A DNA stretch of 47,863 bases from Nitrospirota bacterium (lineage in GTDB: Bacteria > Nitrospirota > Thermodesulfovibrionia > Thermodesulfovibrionales > Dissulfurispiraceae), in the NCBI GenBank assembly GCA_021792185.1, contig JAJYVD010000016.1, positions 1 through 47,863 of the forward strand, read 5' to 3'. A program made the translations under genes and the position numbers. This document shows, piece by piece, positions 10,791 to 20,112 of this stretch. Under the pieces are notes generated by a model. It had not been told where the DNA came from. It worked only from the letters and a program-made list of their open reading frames with translations, and made no database searches. Numbering within the stretch: position 1 is the stretch's first letter; every line of letters begins with the position of its first letter.

Positions 10791-12488
10791 CTATTTTTTC
10801 AGCGTTACAAGCACATCCGCGTCATTGCCGGTGATTACCGGATGCTGGGCTGTGCCTGTCAGCCTTTGCGCCTTGTAAGGCACATTCTCCTTGAGATATT
10901 CCTTCATTTCTCCGATGGTTATCCTTTTGTCCTTGTTTATGTCAGCCTCGCCCTGTATTCCCTTGAGAAAATAGTATGTGAAGAGCGAGTGTTTCTTTTC
11001 ATGATACCATGTTGACACCTGATCAACTGCCGCGCTCGTTATGATAGTGGCGTTGGCAGGCCCCTGATATTCCTTTTTGACCTTAACCAGAGAAGGGCTT
11101 ATGTCCTTAAAGAGCAATCCCTTTTCAGAATTGCCTGAAAAGCATGAGTCTAAAACTATGGTTATCTTCTTTGCGGGTATCTTTGAAAGATTGTTGTAGA
11201 ATGTCTGAAGCATATAGCCGTTGGTCTTTATGAACTTAGGGTTGGCGTCAACAGGCACAAAGTAGGCCTCGTTAGAGTCGAGGTCCGGCGCGCCGTGGCC
11301 TACATAGTAGATAAAGACCTTTGATTTGCCTGGCTTGACGAACTGAAAAAGCCTGCCCCTATGGTCTCTTTCAGAGCCGAAGACTTCATTAAATTTTGCA
11401 AACCCCGCGTCTTCCACATATATGATGTTTTCCGCGTCAAAGCCGAAGGTCTTTACAAGATACTCTTTCATTATCCTCGCGTCTCTGTCCGCGTATTCTA
11501 TGTCCGGGGAGCCCGATGCCGAGTAATGCTTGTTGCCGATTATTACGGCCACGTCAAATTTACCCGCCTTTTCGCCTTCAGGCACATTCATGTCAACATC
11601 TATGCTAAGGCCTGTTGCAAGCTGTATGTCGGGCTTGCTGTCGGTATCTCTGCCTTTGACTATTACTTCTTCGGCCTTTCTCTGAGGCGCGTTCATGGCG
11701 AGGGCAAGGGGTTTGGATACGCTGAATTTCGGCCTTCTCTCTTTGATGTCTATATTTATGGGTATCTGCTCTCCGTTTTTGATGCGGTTGTTGGTATAAA
11801 ACATGAATTTAATGTCTTTGAACTTTCCGGCAGGTATGCCGCCCAAGTCGAAGTTTGTGCCGCTGTCTCCGGCAACAAATACATTATCCCCAAACTGCAC
11901 ATTGGCGGTTACATTACGGGCGTCGCCATGCCCCATGTTCTGTATCCTTGCGGTTATCTCGACTATTTCCATAGGCTCGACTTTATAGTTTTTGTTCTGG
12001 TCTTCTATGCCGATGTCCGCCACTACAAGCTTGGGCGGCTCAAACGCTTTTGTCCTGAAGGCTATTTTTAAGGGTTGAGCGTCAAAACCGTTGGCCTCTT
12101 TGACTTCAATATTAAAGCCGAGGCTCTCGGTCGGCATGTCTTCGGATGCCCTGAGTTCGATTTCTTTGGATATACTGCCGCCTGCCGGTATCGTGCCGAT
12201 CAAGGCGTTTCTGTCGTAAGAAAGGCTGTCAAGCCTTTTGTTGGCGCTTATTACAGCGCTTACATCAAAGGCGTCGCCTTTGCCGTTATTCTGAATATTG
12301 ATAATGATCTTGCCGGTTTCGTCGGCGTCGAGAATGTTGTTGCCCGAAGGCTCATAAAACTGCACGGACGCGGAAAGAGCCGGAGGCAGAGGGAATACAT
12401 TGACCTTGACCGCACCTTGCTCGGCAAAGGCAATGCCTGCCGTAAAGATTATTATCAGCAATAAAAAAACAAACCTATATTGCAGCAT
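10791..12488 (-). CDS. Exported caspase-like peptidase (C14) with CARDB-like domains
   Basis: The 565-residue protein has a signal peptide (1-22), two CARDB-like beta-sandwich domains (about 35-150 and 155-265, each with PKLV or SVQFYEPSGNN plus ARIQNMGHGDARNV-type wording) and a C-terminal caspase fold. The catalytic His is in YYVGHG (about residue 398) and the Cys in DSCFSG (about 449). An EF-hand-like segment (DINKDKRITIGEMKEY) follows. It is likely a periplasmic or surface protease. Genetically it is followed at 3 bp by the antitoxin, the toxin and the DGR target, so a caspase and a hypervariable protein are co-expressed. Both catalytic residues are intact. Confidence 0.9.
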   Translation of the reverse strand: MLQYRFVFLLLIIIFTAGIAFAEQGAVKVNVFPLPPALSASVQFYEPSGNNILDADETGKIIINIQNNGKGDAFDVSAVISANKRLDSLSYDRNALIGTIPAGGSISKEIELRASEDMPTESLGFNIEVKEANGFDAQPLKIAFRTKAFEPPKLVVADIGIEDQNKNYKVEPMEIVEITARIQNMGHGDARNVTANVQFGDNVFVAGDSGTNFDLGGIPAGKFKDIKFMFYTNNRIKNGEQIPINIDIKERRPKFSVSKPLALAMNAPQRKAEEVIVKGRDTDSKPDIQLATGLSIDVDMNVPEGEKAGKFDVAVIIGNKHYSASGSPDIEYADRDARIMKEYLVKTFGFDAENIIYVEDAGFAKFNEVFGSERDHRGRLFQFVKPGKSKVFIYYVGHGAPDLDSNEAYFVPVDANPKFIKTNGYMLQTFYNNLSKIPAKKITIVLDSCFSGNSEKGLLFKDISPSLVKVKKEYQGPANATIITSAAVDQVSTWYHEKKHSLFTYYFLKGIQGEADINKDKRITIGEMKEYLKENVPYKAQRLTGTAQHPVITGNDADVLVTLKK

Positions 12489-12500
12489 AAGACACCTCCC

Positions 12501-13316
12501 CTATTTGTCTTTCGGGTTTACTACTTCATATACCAGCATTACATCTTCTGCATAATCCGCTATGTCCGAAAATTTCTTAAAAAATGAACTGAAGCTCATA
12601 GGCTCAAGCGGCATGAGAATATCGGTGAAGTCCTTTGTATATTCATTGTCCAGCGCCGCTATAAGGAATGCCTCTGTGTCCCTTTGATGGCCTTCCAATG
12701 TCTGCATGACAAGCTCTGTCTTTGTGTTTTTATCCGGGAATATGAGCCTTCCCTTTCCAGAAAGCCTGTTGTCTTTATCATGGTCGTTCGGAAAAACCAT
12801 TACAACTTTATCGTCTGCGGTTATGTTGAAGATCGCTATTTTGACGCTTCTGATAGAACTTGCTTCTATAACGGCCTTATCTCCGTTTTTATAGACGATG
12901 CTGTTTGTCTTTGCCTTTAAGCCGAGAGGTTTTATTTTGGGCTCAGGCACTCTGACGTCGGCGACTATTTTGACCCTGTATTCGGGGATGGGCGGAGTTT
13001 TAGAATCTTTCTGATACTGGCCGAGCGGCAGCCATTGCGCTTTTTCATTTATGACGAATCCTTTTGAATAGGTCTTTATAAAATCGGCTGTGAGCGCCAT
13101 GTTGGTTACAAGGGTGCTTGAGGCTACGGACATTCCGGCGGCCTGCTCTATCGCCATAGCCCTCGCCCTCTGTAATGCTATAAGCTGGCACTGCTCGGCG
13201 CTCATGCCTACTATAGCGCAGGAGCCTTCGGCTGTGATGTTTTTGACTGTTTCAGCCCTGACAGACTGAGACAGAAGCAAAAAGACTGAAAGCATCAATG
13301 CTGCAATCTTCCCCAC
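12501..13316 (-). CDS. Exported LPP20-like/DUF4384 protein
   Basis: The 271-residue protein has a signal peptide (1-21). Next comes an LPP20/FlgT-N-like region (ITAEGSCAIVGMSAEQCQLIALQRARAMA, here in parts: GMSAEQCQLIALQRARAMAI). Residues about 135-200 match the DUF4384 pattern (YKNGDKAVIEASSIRSVKIA, then VVMVFPNDHDKDN). DUF4384 proteins commonly accompany bacterial caspases. It heads the accessory operon, 12 bp before the caspase. The start is GTG 13316 behind GAGAGGG. A weak sigma-70-like promoter (TTGATT, 17 bp, TATCTT) lies upstream near 13340-13375. Confidence 0.8.
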   Translation of the reverse strand: MGKIAALMLSVFLLLSQSVRAETVKNITAEGSCAIVGMSAEQCQLIALQRARAMAIEQAAGMSVASSTLVTNMALTADFIKTYSKGFVINEKAQWLPLGQYQKDSKTPPIPEYRVKIVADVRVPEPKIKPLGLKAKTNSIVYKNGDKAVIEASSIRSVKIAIFNITADDKVVMVFPNDHDKDNRLSGKGRLIFPDKNTKTELVMQTLEGHQRDTEAFLIAALDNEYTKDFTDILMPLEPMSFSSFFKKFSDIADYAEDVMLVYEVVNPKDK

Positions 13317-13401: not shown

Positions 13402-13444
13402 TTGTCAAGATTTTTTCTTGTTCCTGTAATCCTCAACGGCCTTT
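13402..13444 (-). repeat. Right copy of the 43-bp direct repeat (native iscU 3' end)
   Basis: This copy contains the last 12 codons and the stop of iscU plus 3 bp beyond it. One mismatch separates it from 7956-7998. Together the copies bracket the HicB, DGR, toxin-antitoxin, caspase and DUF4384 genes. Confidence 0.75.
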
Positions 13445-13776
13445 CTAAGCGCATCGGCTCCCAGATTCGAGCAGTGCATCTTCTGCGGAGGCAGTCCTCC
13501 GAGTTCATTGGCAACCGCCTCCTTTGAGATGGTCAATGCCTCGTCAAGAGTCTTGCCCTTTACCATCTCGGTTATCATGCTGCTTACGGCAATAGCCGCG
13601 CCGCACCCGAACGTCCTGAATTTTGCGTCGACTATTACGTCATTTTCGACCTTTATGAACAACTGCATGGCATCTCCGCAGGTCGGATTGCCTTCCATGC
13701 CCATGCCGTCGGCATCCTGAATTTCTCCGACATTTCTCGGGTTCATAAAGTGGTCCATCACTTTAGGGGAATACAT
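13405..13776 (-). CDS. iscU: Iron-sulfur cluster scaffold protein IscU
   Basis: The 123-residue scaffold keeps the three cluster cysteines: PTCGD with its assisting Asp (about 34-36), FGCGAAIA (about 60) and MHCSNLG (about 104). It receives persulfide sulfur and iron to build [2Fe-2S] clusters. I start at ATG 13776 (MYSPKVMDHFMNPRNVG), with GGAGG 9-14 bp upstream. A GTG at 13785 is also open but lies inside that ribosome binding site. The gene follows iscS by 93 bp. Its 3' end carries the direct repeat that borders the island. Confidence 0.95.
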   Translation of the reverse strand: MYSPKVMDHFMNPRNVGEIQDADGMGMEGNPTCGDAMQLFIKVENDVIVDAKFRTFGCGAAIAVSSMITEMVKGKTLDEALTISKEAVANELGGLPPQKMHCSNLGADALRKAVEDYRNKKKS

Positions 13777-13805
13777 ATAACCCACCTCCTTATCTCTTTG
13801 CTCTA

Positions 13806-13869: not shown

Positions 13870-15066
13870 TCATCCTGTATAACACTTCTCTCCCTCGGTA
13901 CCTTCTCCCCATCCCTTTGCAAACGGAGACATCTCCCTCAATCTGTTAATTATCTGCGGAAATTCTCCAAGCAGGTAATCCACGTCTTCCCGTGCATTAC
14001 CTGCCCCGAGGCTGAATACTATAGAACCCTGCGCAAGGGCCGTAGGAACTCCGAGCGACAATAAGACCGGAGAAGATTTCAGCGCTTTAGATGAACAAGC
14101 CGACCCGCTTGCCGCGTATATGCCTTTCATCGAAAGCATCAACAGCATTGCCTCTCCTTCTATGAATTCGACAACAAAGCTCGCATGATGGGGCAATCTC
14201 TTTTCGGGATGTCCGGTAAGATATACGTTTGGGATTTTCAATGCGCCCTCTATTATTCTGTCCCTCAGTTTTTTACAGTTATCCATTCTCTTGTCCAACT
14301 CGCTCTTTGCGATTTCCGCAGCCTTTCCCATGCCGGCTATAGCGGGAACATTTTCGGTGCCGGCCCTTCTGCCTCCTTCCTGAATGCCCCCGTAAATAAG
14401 AGGTACTATCCTCAGCCCCTCCCTCACATAGAGGGCGCCTGCGCCTTTAGGACCGTAAAACTGGTGCGCTGCCATGCTCAAAAGATCGACGCCGAGATCA
14501 TTAACGTCAACCGGAATATTCCCGACCGTTGCAACACCGTCCGCGTGAAATACGATATTATTTTGTTTCGCTATTTTTGCTATTTCTTTTATGGGCTCTA
14601 TCGTTCCGATCTCGCTGCTCGCGTGGGTTATGGAGATAAGAACGGTCTCTTTTGTAATAGAGTTCTTAACCGTATCGGGATCGACAAGTCCGTGTTTATC
14701 GACAGGCAGATACGTTACGACAAAACCGTTTTTTTCAAGGAACCGGGCGGAATTGAGGATGGAGTGATGCTCTACCTTGGATACGATCACGTGCTTGCCC
14801 TGATTCTGTTTTGCGAGGGCTATTCCTCTGAGGGCAAAGTTATTCGCTTCCGCGCCGCTTGCGGTAAAAACGACTGCGGATGGTTTCGCGTTGATCAGGG
14901 AGGCGACTTCCGATCTCGCCTTTTCAATTGCGTCACGCGCCCTCATTCCCAAGTCATATACGCTCAAGGGATTGCCGAAATCTTCCTTAAAATACGGCAT
15001 CATTGCGCTCAGCACTTCCGGATTAAGCGGATTAGTTGCAACGTGGTCAAAATAACATTTACTCAT
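13870..15066 (-). CDS. iscS: IscS-like cysteine desulfurase homologue lacking the PLP lysine
   Basis: The 398-residue protein is an IscS/NifS homologue: the mobile-loop cysteine (SGSACSS), the histidine EHHSILN and the PLP-contacting Asp in HADG are present. The lysine that normally forms the Schiff base (GHKxYGPKG) is Gln202 (AAHQFYGPKG, codon CAG), and the glutamine of HVDxxQ is Ala. This matches the Lys-less IscS described structurally from Archaeoglobus fulgidus. It may therefore not desulfurate cysteine in the usual way and could serve in assembly with free sulfide. It lies between a tusA-like gene and iscU. Confidence 0.88.
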   Translation of the reverse strand: MSKCYFDHVATNPLNPEVLSAMMPYFKEDFGNPLSVYDLGMRARDAIEKARSEVASLINAKPSAVVFTASGAEANNFALRGIALAKQNQGKHVIVSKVEHHSILNSARFLEKNGFVVTYLPVDKHGLVDPDTVKNSITKETVLISITHASSEIGTIEPIKEIAKIAKQNNIVFHADGVATVGNIPVDVNDLGVDLLSMAAHQFYGPKGAGALYVREGLRIVPLIYGGIQEGGRRAGTENVPAIAGMGKAAEIAKSELDKRMDNCKKLRDRIIEGALKIPNVYLTGHPEKRLPHHASFVVEFIEGEAMLLMLSMKGIYAASGSACSSKALKSSPVLLSLGVPTALAQGSIVFSLGAGNAREDVDYLLGEFPQIINRLREMSPFAKGWGEGTEGEKCYTG

Positions 15067-15082: not shown

Positions 15083-15160
15083 TAGGCGATAGGTAATAGG
15101 CTATAGGCCATAGGTTTTTGTTTCTACTTATTGCCTATCATCTATTGCCCATTGCCTGCC
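15083..15160. repeat. ATAGGC / GCCTAT period repeat hairpin
   Basis: Left units (GGCGATAGG, TAATAGGCTATAGGCCATAGG) face right units (TTGCCTATC, ATCTATTGCCCATTGCC). The right arm encodes the C-terminal GNGQ and stop of the tusA-like gene. A related repeat encodes the N-terminus of FlgA at 32937-32975. Confidence 0.75.
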
Positions 15161-15399
15161 TTTCTTACATAAAATTTGTAATAATCCTCGTCTTCGTCCA
15201 TCCCGATAAATTCATTCCCTGTCCTTACGCACCACTGAGGTATATCTTCAAGAGCGCCGTCGTAATCGGTCAGTATCTCGAGCACCTGCCCCTTTTCAAG
15301 CCCCTTTATCATCTCGTCGAGTTTCAGCAGATGCATAGGGCACATCATATACACGATATCGGCAGTAACGTCCGCCTTCACGCCGTGAATGAATTTCAT
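15142..15399 (-). CDS. TusA/SirA-like sulfur-carrier protein
   Basis: The 85-residue protein has the TusA fold pattern: strand ADVTADIVYMMCP, a helix (MHLLKLDEMIKGLEKG), then EILTDYDGALEDIPQWC. The motif is CPMH rather than CPxP, with the sulfur-carrying cysteine kept (C20). TusA proteins pass persulfide between desulfurases and acceptors. Between iscR and iscS, it may supply sulfur to the Lys-less IscS/IscU pair; this is inference. The final residues and stop come from a repeat. Confidence 0.8.
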   Translation of the reverse strand: MKFIHGVKADVTADIVYMMCPMHLLKLDEMIKGLEKGQVLEILTDYDGALEDIPQWCVRTGNEFIGMDEDEDYYKFYVRKAGNGQ

Positions 15400-15407
15400 A
15401 AAAATAA

Positions 15408-15537
15408 CAGGTTGAGGTTGAGGAAAAAAGACAAGTTTAGGTTTAGGTTAAGAGAAAGAGGAATATTATTCCTTAACCTTAGCCTTAGCCTATCCTTTTA
15501 AACCTTGACCTTATCCTTAACCTTGACCTCCTGACTG
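15408..15537. repeat. Period-6 AGGTTG / CAACCT hairpin at the end of iscR
   Basis: Left units (AGGTTGAGGTTGAGG, GTTTAGGTTTAGGTTAAG) face right units (CCTTAACCTTAGCCTTAGCC, TTGACCTTATCCTTAACC). The right part is coding: on the minus strand it gives VKVKDKVKV and stop, the tail of IscR. Relatives are at 34728-34793 and in cheA at 42237-42375. Confidence 0.8.
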
Positions 15538-15947
15538 TAAAAGTCTCCTGCCATTAAATTCTTAAGTGTTATGGTTTTAAGAAATGCCTCTACCTGCTCT
15601 CCCAATGCCTTCCACAGCAAATGGGTTACGCAGCTATCGACACGCACGCATCCGCCTTCGGGATCAAGGCACGATGTAAGTGCGACAGGGCCCTCCAGTT
15701 CGTTTAAAATAGAAGCTATGCTTATTTTATCGGCGCTCCGGTTCAGTATATAGCCTCCGCCGGGCCCTTTTATGCTTTTGATTAATCCTGCCTTCCTGAG
15801 CTTATTAAGTATCTGTTCAAGGTAGGCGACAGAGACATCCTGCCTTTCGGAAATCTCTTTGATAGTTACAGGCGTTTCAGGATACCCTCTCGCAATTTCG
15901 TACATGGCCCTTACGCCGTATTGTCCTTTTGTCGATAACCTCAGCAT
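15498..15947 (-). CDS. iscR: Rrf2-family iron-sulfur regulator IscR
   Basis: The 149-residue protein has an Rrf2 winged helix (RLSTKGQYGVRAMYEIA, VSVAYLEQILNKLRKAGL, KGPGGGYIL) and three cluster cysteines in SCLDPEGGCVRVDSC (spacing 6 and 5; classic IscR has 5 and 5). It should sense [2Fe-2S] supply and repress the iscR-tusA-iscS-iscU run. A near-consensus IscR type 1 operator lies on its own promoter. Nine C-terminal residues are encoded by a low-complexity repeat. The ATG is only about 7 bp from the -10 box, so the message may be leaderless. Confidence 0.93.
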   Translation of the reverse strand: MLRLSTKGQYGVRAMYEIARGYPETPVTIKEISERQDVSVAYLEQILNKLRKAGLIKSIKGPGGGYILNRSADKISIASILNELEGPVALTSCLDPEGGCVRVDSCVTHLLWKALGEQVEAFLKTITLKNLMAGDFYSQEVKVKDKVKV

Positions 15948-15953
15948 GCTTAA

Positions 15954-15986
15954 ATACTAAAATACCCTACTGTTTTTGTCAAGTAT
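15954..15986 (-). promoter_or_regulatory. iscR promoter with IscR type 1 operator
   Basis: On the minus strand TTGACA (15977-15982), 17 bp and TAGTAT (15954-15959) form a promoter. Overlapping the -35 box, positions 15962-15986 match the 25-bp IscR type 1 consensus (ATASYYGACTRWWWYAGTCRRSTAT in pieces) at 23 of 25 positions by hand count; the two mismatches are the T after GAC and the C after AGT. Binding would block RNA polymerase, giving negative feedback. The predicted start point falls on or next to the iscR ATG. Confidence 0.8.
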
Positions 15987-16039: not shown

Positions 16040-16666
16040 CTACTTTGCCTTTTCTTCGAACAACTCTTCTTCCTGTTTGTTTTTCATCCTCTTGACGAGC
16101 TCTTCATACGAATCGGTGCGGATGATTTTATTGAACTGCGTCCTGTAGTTATTGACAAGGCTTACGCCCTCTATCACTACATCGTAGACCTCCCACTTCC
16201 CGTCTTTCTTAAGAAGCCTGTATTCTACCGGTATCTCCACATTCCTCTTAGTGACAATCTTAGTATTAACCTCGGAATATCCGCCATCCACCTTTTCTGC
16301 AACATACAGTATTTTTTCATCAGTATAGGTTTCTATCTTTTTAATATACGACCTTTCAATGAGATCTGAGAATAAGGGGACAAATTCTTTCCTCTCATCC
16401 GGCGTTCTTTTTCGCCAGTGGAGGCCAAGCGACCTCTTTCCCATCTCCTCAAAATCGAATCTCTCCGAAACTATCTTGCGTATTGCCGTCCTTCTCTCTT
16501 TTGTCTTTGCCGGTTTTTTCAGTTCCTTATCTTTCAAAATATCGAGCACTTTATCTACCGTATGCCTTACCTGATCCATCGGCTCTCCCGCATACGCGGC
16601 ATAAGAATTCCCTGCCATAAACGCAAAAATAAAAAATACCGCAAAAAACGACCTTACGCCTCTCAT
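16040..16666 (-). CDS. mlaC: MlaC/Ttg2D-family periplasmic phospholipid-binding protein
   Basis: The 208-residue protein has a signal peptide (1-24) and the MlaC pattern: MDQVRHTVDKVLDILKD, the helix pair MGKRSLGLHWRKRTPDERKE (with the conserved W and R), FVPLFSDLIERSY, and KIVTKRNVEIPVEYRLLK in the beta-sheet, ending VYDVVIEGVSLVNNYR. It carries phospholipids between the outer membrane and the MlaFED transporter. It is the last gene of the operon, followed by a strong terminator. Confidence 0.92.
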   Translation of the reverse strand: MRGVRSFFAVFFIFAFMAGNSYAAYAGEPMDQVRHTVDKVLDILKDKELKKPAKTKERRTAIRKIVSERFDFEEMGKRSLGLHWRKRTPDERKEFVPLFSDLIERSYIKKIETYTDEKILYVAEKVDGGYSEVNTKIVTKRNVEIPVEYRLLKKDGKWEVYDVVIEGVSLVNNYRTQFNKIIRTDSYEELVKRMKNKQEEELFEEKAK

Positions 16667-16690
16667 AAAACTTAAAACCTCCTTGATTAA

Positions 16691-18097
16691 TTACTTTATT
16701 TCCTTGATATCCATCCCCGCTGCATATAAAAGATTTGCAAACGACATCCTGTGATTATATATTGAACGCAGATTATTCGCCTTCATCTGCGCATATGCCA
16801 CGGCAGCGTCCGCTATATCCTTAGCGTCACCGATACCGAGGTCGAAATTAGCTACCGCCACTACAAGCCATTTCCGTGCATTTCTATATGCCTTCTCCGT
16901 TTCAACGATATTTTTCTTCGCCTCTTCCATATCGAGATATACCTTTCTCACCTGAAACGGGATAGCCTCATCGGCAAACTTCTTTTTCTCCACTAATTTG
17001 TGGTGCTCTGCCTGCGCCTCTTTGACCCTTCCCTCCGTTATTCCGAAATCGAGGGACCACTTAAGCCCCATAAACGCTGCGCCGTAGGAGTGATTAAAGA
17101 AGTCGTAAAGATACGGATTATCCACTTTGTCCCTGTTTGTCGCTCCGGCAACCGATGCCTTCAGCCCTAAAAAAAGGTGGGGATAAAAATTGCTTTTCTC
17201 GGCATTAACGAGCGAGTTCCGGGCATTCAGTCCTTCTTTAAGCTGAATGAACTCGGACCTGAGTTCTACGGCATTTTTCATGTAATTCTGCAATTCTTCC
17301 GGAATTCTACTCTCCGGAGTCAATGACGTGTCTGCAACATCGAAGTCCGCTTCCTGCGGAAGTCCCATGCTTGTAATAAGGCCGTCTTTTGCCACGGCTA
17401 TGCCTTTTTCCGTCTCGTTGATATTTCTATCTATCTCTCCCAGAAACGCCCGCAGTTTAAACAGATTTGCCTCATCCGCCCACGGAGAGCCTATCGCTAT
17501 CTGTTTCTCAGCCTTTTTTATGGATTCAACGAGTTCGTCCTTTACTTCCAACACAAGGTTTCTCATGTCTCTCGCAAGGATCAGCCCGTAATAAAGCTCT
17601 TTTGTCCTTAAGATTATATCCGACGTCTTTTTGCCCACGCCTGCCTTTGCCACCTTTATGCCGCTCTCGGCAGCCTCTCTATAACTGCTTATCTTGCCGA
17701 AGGTGTAGAGAGGCTGGATCAAGGTCGCGTCGGCGCTTCCGAATATGCCGTTAATGGTCGTTCCGACGGATGTATTAACCGTGGGGCTTATCTGTTCTTT
17801 TTTCGCCCTCGGTGACGGCCCTGTCAATGCAAACACCTCTATCTGAGGATAGCCCGCCGAGTCGGCCTGCATCTTTTTCGACTTATAGACCTCTTCCTCG
17901 TAACGAGATTCCCCTATCTCCGGGCTGATTTCCACGGCTTTTTTAATGCATTGTTCGAGCGTTAAAACAATTTTCCGGTTAGTATCCTGTCCATATGCAG
18001 GCAGAGCATATAAAAAAACAACAAGCAGGAGTAATGGAGTGATCCAATACTCCTGCTCTAACCTCTGAATCCTGAGACTTGACTCCTGAGTTGACAT
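16691..18097 (-). CDS. TolC-family outer-membrane efflux protein
   Basis: The 468-residue protein has two outer-membrane efflux protein repeats: long coiled-coil helices (about 60-250 and 265-460) with LIQPLYTFGKISSYREAAESG and KWSLDFGITEGRVKEAQAEH as strand regions. It probably forms a trimeric channel across the outer membrane. Its place inside an mla operon suggests it works with that MCE system or with lipid or solvent export. The first 20 residues before the hydrophobic signal segment (YWITPLLLLVVFLYALPAYG) are encoded by a CAGGAGT-type low-complexity repeat. The start follows GGAGGAG, 2 bp after mlaD. Confidence 0.88.
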   Translation of the reverse strand: MSTQESSLRIQRLEQEYWITPLLLLVVFLYALPAYGQDTNRKIVLTLEQCIKKAVEISPEIGESRYEEEVYKSKKMQADSAGYPQIEVFALTGPSPRAKKEQISPTVNTSVGTTINGIFGSADATLIQPLYTFGKISSYREAAESGIKVAKAGVGKKTSDIILRTKELYYGLILARDMRNLVLEVKDELVESIKKAEKQIAIGSPWADEANLFKLRAFLGEIDRNINETEKGIAVAKDGLITSMGLPQEADFDVADTSLTPESRIPEELQNYMKNAVELRSEFIQLKEGLNARNSLVNAEKSNFYPHLFLGLKASVAGATNRDKVDNPYLYDFFNHSYGAAFMGLKWSLDFGITEGRVKEAQAEHHKLVEKKKFADEAIPFQVRKVYLDMEEAKKNIVETEKAYRNARKWLVVAVANFDLGIGDAKDIADAAVAYAQMKANNLRSIYNHRMSFANLLYAAGMDIKEIK

Positions 18098-18099
18098 CG

Positions 18100-18552
18100 C
18101 TATACTCCTCCGAATACATACTTTGATATCAATTCTTCCAAATCAACCGCGGACTCGGTTTCCCTCAGCCGTTCGCCGTTCGCAATAATTTTCTCGGAGC
18201 CTCCCGGTGTTATCTGAATGTATTTCTCTCCTATAAGCCCCTTTGTTTTTACCGAAACTATCGAATCTTCCTGTATCTTCACGTCATTATTCAGCATAAT
18301 TTCCACCCGCGCCTGGTAGTCTTTATTAAGCACTACGGACTTTACCTTCCCGACATGAACCCCTGCTATTTCCACGTCGGAACCCGGTTTTATGCCGCCT
18401 GATTTTTCAAATTCCGCATATACAGTATATCCCTTGCCGCCTATAACTTCAAGTTTACCCATTTTTATGGATATATATCCGAGCGCCAAAATACCGATCA
18501 AGAGAAAAAAACCGACTGCCAGTTCAATGTCAAATTTCTTTTTAATATTCAT
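18100..18552 (-). CDS. mlaD: MlaD, MCE-domain lipid transport subunit
   Basis: The 150-residue protein has an N-terminal membrane anchor (residues 9-30) and one MCE domain (YTVYAEFEKSGGIKPGSDVE, IAGVHVGKVKSVVLN, KGLIGEKYIQITPGG). MlaD hexamers sit on the MlaFE transporter in the periplasm and form the lipid channel. The gene lies 2 bp after mlaF and 2 bp before tolC. Length and motifs are usual. Confidence 0.95.
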   Translation of the reverse strand: MNIKKKFDIELAVGFFLLIGILALGYISIKMGKLEVIGGKGYTVYAEFEKSGGIKPGSDVEIAGVHVGKVKSVVLNKDYQARVEIMLNNDVKIQEDSIVSVKTKGLIGEKYIQITPGGSEKIIANGERLRETESAVDLEELISKYVFGGV

Positions 18553-18554
18553 AA

Positions 18555-19322
18555 TTACCTCCTCGTTTCCTTTTCACACAGCAGTTCCACAGGGCCTTCA
18601 GAGCTTCCGGTTAAAAACTGCCTCACCATCGGATTCGATGACCTTTTTATTTCATCGGGCGTGCCGACCTCTTCAATGGCTCCTCTGTATAAAAAAGCTA
18701 CCTTGTCCGAAATATCAAATATCTCCGGTATCTCATGGCTTATCACAATGCCTGTAAATCCGTGCGTTTCGTGGGTGCATCTTATCAGTTTATGAGTGGA
18801 ATTTAAAAGTATCGGGTCGAGTCCTGTTGTAGGCTCATCGAACAAGACTATCCGAGGTTCTGTTATCAATGTTCTCGCGAGCGCAACCCTTTTTCTCATT
18901 CCTCCGCTCATTTCCGACGGATATTTATCCTCCATACCTTTCAGACCGACATCTTCCAGAGCCTTCGACACCTTTTCCTGCAGTGCCTTTTTACCGATTT
19001 TTATCTTTTCCTTTAATGGAAATGCTACATTTTCATAGGCGGTCATCGAATCAAAAAGCGCTCCTCCCTGAAAAAGCACTCCGAGTTTTTGCCTTGTCTT
19101 ATCCATCTCTCTGCCGCGAAGTTTTGTAATATCAACTCCGTCAATTATTATGCTTCCCTTGTCCGGCTTTAAAATTCCTATAATATTTTTCAGAAGGACG
19201 CTCTTCCCTCCGCCGCTTCTCCCTATTACGGCCATAATCTCGCCATGTTCTATTCTGAGATTAATGCCGTTCAAAACCTTCTGTCCGTTAAACGATTTTT
19301 CAAGTCCTATAATCTCTATCAT
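18555..19322 (-). CDS. mlaF: MlaF, ABC transporter ATPase
   Basis: The 255-residue ATPase has Walker A GRSGGGKS, signature [14 protein letters not shown], Walker [14 protein letters not shown] and the switch histidine in VISHE. It powers phospholipid transfer through MlaE. It lies 10 bp after mlaE and 2 bp before mlaD. The C-terminal extension after about 225 is as usual for MlaF. Confidence 0.96.
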
Positions 19323-19332
19323 AACCGCCCTT

Positions 19333-20112
19333 CTATAATAAAACCGAACCGAGAAAATAATCCCATATGAGAATCAATACCGAAGACATAACAACCGCAT
19401 CTGTTGTTGACCTGCTTACCCCTTCGGCTCCAAAACCCGTCTCTTCCGTAAAATAACCCTTATAACATGATATCCATGAAACAATAATGCCGAAGCTTAT
19501 TGATTTGTATAAACCTATTTTTACGTCTTTCCATTCCACGAAGATGTCTATCTGTGAAAAATATGTGCCTTCGCTCAAACCTAAAAGTTTTACCGCTATA
19601 ATATATCCGCCGTAAATCCCTATAACATCAAAAATTGCCGCGAGCAGAGGGAATACAATAATAGCAGCTATAATATTCGGTACAATAAGATACCTCATCG
19701 GATTTAAAGCCATTGAAACAAGAGCGTCTATCTGCTCCGAGATACGCATTATGCCTATCTCTGCGGTCAGGGCGGAGCCTGCCCTTCCCGTAACCATCAA
19801 AGCGGAAAGAACCGGTCCAAGTTCCCTTATAAGACTTAGAGCCACCGCAGGACCGAGCAGTGCCTCCGAACCGAATTTATTTAAGGTATGATAAATCTGA
19901 AGGGCCATAACCATGCCTGTAAACGACCCGGTAAGAAGTATCACTATCATTGACTTGTTTCCGAAAAACCTTATCTGCTTTAAAAGCAATCTAAATTTAA
20001 ACGGAGGCACGAATGTGTAGTATATCGAATTCAATAAAAACATAAGCATATGCCCCATTCTTTTTAGAAAGGATAATGCCCGGCTGCCTAATCTTCTTAA
20101 CAAGTTTATCAT
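19333..20112 (-). CDS. mlaE: MlaE, ABC transporter permease
   Basis: The 259-residue permease has an N-terminal interface helix and about five membrane helices. It carries the family signatures [20 protein letters not shown] and [20 protein letters not shown], and a C-terminal [16 protein letters not shown]. It forms the inner-membrane core of the MlaFED complex. It is the first gene of the operon, about 50 bp behind a clear promoter. Confidence 0.96.

Follow-up and report, generated by a model that had tools for sequence, protein, structure and literature searches.

With the exception of SMS, every Fe-S assembly system covered in reviews includes a cysteine desulfurase (e.g. PMC11559095), and MisS of the minimal isc system MIS (MisS-MisU) is also termed a cysteine desulfurase (PMC11559095). 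In E. coli IscS, Arg354 holds the substrate carboxylate and Gln183 contacts the PLP phenolate oxygen; mutants at His104, Asp180, Gln183, Lys206, or Cys328 are inactive, and the K206A variant still makes PLP-cysteine intermediates at a very low rate (PMC9978102). Lys-less IscS proteins are already known from Archaeoglobus fulgidus and Methanosarcina acetivorans. The A. fulgidus protein is inactive as a desulfurase and supplies a cysteine that ligates the IscU-bound cluster (PMC7585200; PMC9769115). Its structures (IscS2; PDB 4eb5, 4eb7, and 4hvk, with the D199K mutant as 4r5f) include a complex with IscU, and the protein is drawn with PLP. The M. acetivorans genome has both IscS1 (MA0808), a paralogue that lacks the catalytic Lys and is encoded next to iscU, and a canonical IscS (PMC7585200). 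For their Fe-S clusters, methanogens such as M. maripaludis draw on sulfide (PMC10500019).

A Lys-less IscS homologue in an isc operon

We analyzed a 47,863-nucleotide stretch of a Nitrospirota genome (contig JAJYVD010000016.1), hereafter the window. The gene at 13870–15066 (minus strand) encodes a 398-residue Lys-less IscS homologue, a putative pseudo-cysteine desulfurase. Its class V aminotransferase fold and full-length sequence similarity place it with the group I desulfurases (IscS/NifS), and PF00266 scores 264.9 bits against a cut-off of 21.5, while the NCBIfam equivalog cut-offs are missed for both IscS (TIGR02006, 380 vs 643.2) and NifS (TIGR03402, 490.8 vs 530.75). An AF2 model built from a 59-sequence alignment has a mean pLDDT of 92.2 and is uncertain only at the cysteine loop (residues 323–328) and the C-terminal tail. 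The best solved structure by Foldseek is A. fulgidus IscS (4hvk, E = 3.2e-47, rmsd 1.2), with E. coli IscS at E = 1e-44; by VIA-align, human NFS1, E. coli IscS, and A. fulgidus IscS are about tied (Z = 55–57).

Residues 198–208 read M-A-A-H-Q-F-Y-G-P-K-G. In an alignment with E. coli IscS (a reference sequence verified against PDB 1p3w, with one difference near the C-terminus), Gln202 (codon CAG, 14461–14463) occupies the position of the PLP-binding Lys206, and Ala179 (14530–14532, computed from the ORF start) occupies that of Gln183. Asp176 and the loop cysteine Cys324 (14095–14097) correspond to Asp180 and Cys328. The first-pass annotation had proposed all of this, namely Gln for the PLP lysine, Ala for the Gln of the HVDxxQ motif, and retention of the sulfur-carrying Cys and the Asp contact. 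The losses go beyond what it described: Val350 (14017–14019) replaces Arg354, the substrate carboxylate ligand, Ser150/Ser151 replace Asn154/Asn155, Ala72 lies at Thr76, a phosphate contact, and Ala199 lies at Ser203. We also considered whether another lysine might fill the PLP site, and none aligns there; Lys207 of the GPKG segment is near-invariant in canonical enzymes as well, and Lys327 and Lys330 beside the loop cysteine are enriched in this clade and lie outside the PLP position. Codons 327–330 (14077–14088) place Lys at Cys+3 in 93% and at Cys+6 in 100% of the Gln-type clade, against 0% and 20% in canonical enzymes. The internal PLP aldimine cannot form because Lys206 is missing, and judged from its residues the window protein is very unlikely to carry out standard PLP-lysine desulfuration.

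The resemblance to A. fulgidus IscS that had been suggested from the sequence is borne out. In both proteins Lys206 is replaced, Gln183 is Ala, and Arg354 is a hydrophobic residue, while His104, Asp180, and the loop Cys are kept and IscU is encoded next door. The archaeal protein (46% identity; reference verified against 4eb5) differs in having Asp rather than Gln at the Lys site and Asn for His205, and in keeping Asn154/155, Thr76, and Ser203. M. acetivorans IscS1 differs in forming inclusion bodies and in not being the sole isc unit of its genome. E. coli IscS, including its complexes with TusA and IscU (1p3w, 3lvj, 3lvl), is alike in fold, cysteine loop, and partner set (PMC2854127), but it is an active PLP enzyme with Lys206, Gln183, and Arg354, and E. 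coli TusA is a sulfur acceptor, not a donor.

Gene order and family profiles confirm that the gene lies in the iscR-tusA-iscS-iscU run previously read at this locus, so that iscR, iscS, and iscU, the genes that define an ISC operon, stand together on the minus strand. Downstream, iscU (13405–13785; NifU_N, PF01592 2.2e-51, TIGR03419 above cut-off) encodes a scaffold with ligands equivalent to C37, D39, C63, H105, and C106. The tusA-like gene (15142–15399; PF01206 4.1e-19) encodes a sulfurtransferase with a Cys-Pro motif (C20-P21) and a second conserved cysteine (C57), although it misses the NCBIfam TusA equivalog cut-off (37.8 vs 78). The Fe-S ligand region of the iscR-like Rrf2 regulator (15498–15947; PF02082 1.9e-39) contains three cysteines and one His; the best NCBIfam match of this protein is IscR (TIGR02010), below cut-off. 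Upstream of iscR, the minus-strand, IscR-box-like site ATACTTGACAAAAACAGTAGGGTAT (15962–15986) overlaps a TTGACA hexamer and presumably resembles the IscR type 1 motif. Its core pattern recurs in 80 of 88 homologous upstream regions, vs 0.01 expected in shuffles, with the hexamer forming part of that signal.

The partners are equally intact at related loci, with cluster ligands complete in 96/96 adjoining IscU proteins and both cysteines present in 102/102 adjoining TusA proteins. At 101 of 105 loci lacking Arg354, tusA is found on the same strand no more than 2 kb away, as opposed to 1 of 50 canonical loci; several of these loci come from the same genomes, and the tree gives a single independent contrast and no power, leaving the association between tusA and Lys-less iscS suggestive. 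Within the class tusA precedes iscS, and in other families it follows it, an indication that the linkage matters. At one locus of another family (f34, L166), translations reveal hscA-, fdx-, and iscX-like genes immediately upstream.

Elsewhere in the window, a Mla-type lipid transport cluster (16040–20112, minus) lies just upstream of iscR and comprises a MlaC/HpnM-like protein, an outer-membrane-efflux-like protein, MlaD, an ABC ATPase, and a permease. On the other side, a minus-strand gene (10791–12488) encodes a protein that combines a caspase-like Peptidase_C14 domain and a CARDB domain; its neighbor (12501–13316) encodes a DUF4384 protein.

Conservation within and beyond the class

A sequencing error at codon 202 was ruled out by the orthologues, and the chance that we are dealing with an error or a decaying pseudogene is practically negligible. 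All 26 same-family orthologues have Gln at the PLP-lysine position, and so do 79 of the 80 named Nitrospirota loci, the remaining one having Met (query not counted). The contig scan covered the best 80 of 328 relatives, within Nitrospirota. Across the same 80 loci, His100, Asp176, and Cys324 are each invariant, as are the replacement residues Val350 and Ser150; Ala179 is found in 77, Thr76 has become Ala in 77, and Ser203 is mostly Ala. We found the exact HQFYGPKG codon pattern in 86/296 sampled Nitrospirota genomes and 54/135 genera, and in no sampled genome of one family (f27). Comparison with two congeners gives dN/dS values of 0.051 and 0.057, no higher than those of canonical NifS paralogues from the same genome pairs (0.066–0.137). 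The Lys-less iscS gene is therefore not decaying, and this purifying selection upholds the first-pass view that it is likely functional.

More distant Nitrospirota homologues form a larger group that has lost Gln183 and Arg354 throughout, with Q, E, L, I, R, M, N, P, S, or T at the Lys site. Lys is retained only in families f21 and f18 and in one f14 row. None of 53 aligned Arg354-less rows, A. fulgidus included, has Gln183 or Arg354, while His104, Asp180, and Cys328 are invariant in them. Canonical comparison rows keep Lys206, Gln183, and Arg354 in 61/61; 40 of these, every one with the three residues, are paralogues from genomes of the class, the majority of which encode the Lys-less form too. 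By alignment, then, an Arg/Gln-less, mostly Lys-less IscS is conserved in most sampled families of the class and in several other families of the phylum.

In a maximum-likelihood tree, the Gln-type clade of the class is a single branch (100/100). Parsimony on the best tree needs two changes for loss of Arg354 and four for loss of Lys, which on that tree speaks against a single origin of the Lys loss. Constraining all Arg354-less rows, A. fulgidus among them, to one clade raises the likelihood by 2.5, and the test does not reject it (p-AU 0.578). With the root unplaced and the deep branches weak, these patterns fit an order in which substrate binding was lost first and the Lys was released afterwards. 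PDB 9wep, which has canonical residues and high similarity to the window protein, is placed on the window protein's side of the tree, a position that is poorly supported. Together with 9wfe, 9wfy, and relatives, it belongs to a set of 2026 cysteine desulfurase entries that are apparently variants of one enzyme; some of these variants carry Arg354→Val and Gln183→Pro, at sites also lost in the Nitrospirota form.

We found no paper on a Lys-less IscS in Nitrospirota in the open-licence literature. As far as that literature shows, the fixation of such a protein across a bacterial class and neighboring families is new, as are the joint loss of Arg354 and Gln183, the linkage to tusA, and its standing beside the sole scaffold in some species. 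A lone Lys-less archaeal IscS could be dismissed as an oddity; here the form extends over most sampled families of a bacterial class and accompanies the only IscU-type scaffold in some species. Its carriers are a large group of mostly sulfur-metabolizing anaerobic bacteria, in which the sulfur source of anaerobes for Fe-S clusters becomes directly testable. These findings also suggest caution in reading an 'iscS' annotation as cysteine desulfurase activity.

Other desulfurases and scaffolds in the genomes

A second, Lys-containing desulfurase, which the first-pass annotation had recommended looking for, is present in the source genome (99.4% complete). Two group I paralogues have the Lys/Gln/Arg set intact, a NifS beside NifU on contig C71 and a lone NifS on C83, and a SufS-like protein on C33 falls under all cut-offs. 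The C71 NifS shares the group I desulfurase fold and a paired scaffold with the window protein, but differs in its intact residues and in its TIGR03402 score (628 against the cut-off of 530.75, where the window protein reaches 490.8). The genome's two NifU_N scaffolds are the window iscU and the NifU on C71. SufB/D were not detected in it, and we accordingly discarded SUF as its alternative machinery. A gene for a YedF selenium-metabolism protein (L039:10674–11261) is convergent with the canonical NifS on C71.

SufB/D were not found in G000, G002 (99% complete), or G006 (100%). In G002 and G006, the sole NifU_N scaffold is encoded next to the Lys-less IscS or some 2.3 kb away from it, and one lone canonical desulfurase is encoded elsewhere. 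G008 and G009, the latter a single contig, also have one NifU_N scaffold each, beside or near the Lys-less IscS. G008 (98% complete; C85, C54) encodes the Lys-less IscS with its IscU, plus a SufB-like protein; we found no Lys-containing desulfurase there, a gene for which may sit in the missing 2%. Nearly all genomes of the class with a Lys-less IscS carry at least one further strong PF00266 protein, and those fetched keep the Lys/Gln/Arg set; cysteine may thus stay the ultimate sulfur source.

We also considered sulfidogenesis as a sufficient explanation. The dsrA gene is near-universal in the class (113 of 120 genomes, the source genome included), and family f5 has dsrA and no Lys-less IscS; sulfide availability alone therefore does not explain the Lys-less form.

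Possible roles and sulfur routes

The residues and operon context make a function in Fe-S assembly likely for the window protein. Because core machinery is lost while the protein is strictly conserved, sulfur is probably fed into cluster assembly by another route, and a different sulfur route in these cells is plausible. On balance, we regard it as probable that the protein is a PLP-lysine-independent pseudo-desulfurase that no longer performs standard L-cysteine desulfuration and has been preserved as the platform for an ISC-type Fe-S assembly unit. It would retain the fold, the flexible cysteine loop, and the neighboring IscU, with Arg354 for the cysteine carboxylate and Gln183 for the PLP phenolate oxygen gone. 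We infer that it would lack desulfurase activity and that IscU would dock on it. Cys324 could then take a persulfide from another protein and hand it to IscU, or it could transiently coordinate the nascent [2Fe-2S] cluster, the role that Cys321 has when A. fulgidus IscS is bound to IscU. For the former, the adjacent two-cysteine TusA would be the best candidate and the obvious carrier, loaded in turn by sulfide, by polysulfide, or by a canonical NifS; that it would donate sulfur is something we infer, since E. coli TusA acts as an acceptor. The invariance of His104 and Asp180, both PLP contacts, leaves room for a cofactor, and the Lys-less IscS may bind PLP or PMP non-covalently. A bolder version, which we advance tentatively and consider somewhat doubtful, is a lineage-wide bacterial ISC machine independent of the PLP lysine, in which sulfur from sulfide or polysulfide would pass from TusA to Cys324 to IscU, cysteine would not be the Fe-S sulfur source, and this would be the only IscU-type route in some species.

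The further PF00266 proteins of the class, and the C71 NifU-NifS pair and lone C83 NifS of the source genome, are what a pseudo-subunit fed by a canonical desulfurase would need. A NifS persulfide would reach Cys324 through TusA or by direct contact and go on to IscU, making the protein an acceptor or adaptor with no sulfide route. We think this unlikely, as the canonical genes are unlinked to the Lys-less operon, the C71 NifS has its own NifU, and G008 yielded no other desulfurase.

Two other explanations would keep chemistry in the pocket. A cryptic desulfurase, using His104 or another residue as base with non-covalent PLP for slow cysteine desulfuration, would draw on the invariant His104 and Asp180, the residual intermediates of E. 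coli K206A (PMC9978102), and the new conserved Lys327/330 near the loop. It is decidedly improbable given that Arg354 and Gln183 are lost too, along with Asn154 and Thr76 in the window lineage, that ten different non-Lys residues occupy the Lys site across families, and that A. fulgidus IscS is inactive. That free variation at the Lys position, together with an operon context of Fe-S assembly, also speaks against a PLP/PMP enzyme with a new substrate or reaction in a remodeled pocket, which we consider more improbable still, even though the PLP-ring contacts His104 and Asp180 are kept and pocket residues such as Ser150 and Val350 are re-fixed within the clade rather than randomized.

Away from the platform role that we favor, related iscS-like genes occur in a different setting in families f33, f36, and f37 (L163, L165, L167, L171, L173). 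Their Lys site is P, S, or Q, and His205 is replaced by Gln. They have no iscU nearby and directly adjoin tusA, overlapping it in some loci, with a desaturase-like gene adjacent in the two loci read. It is possible that this pair constitutes a sulfur relay without IscU.
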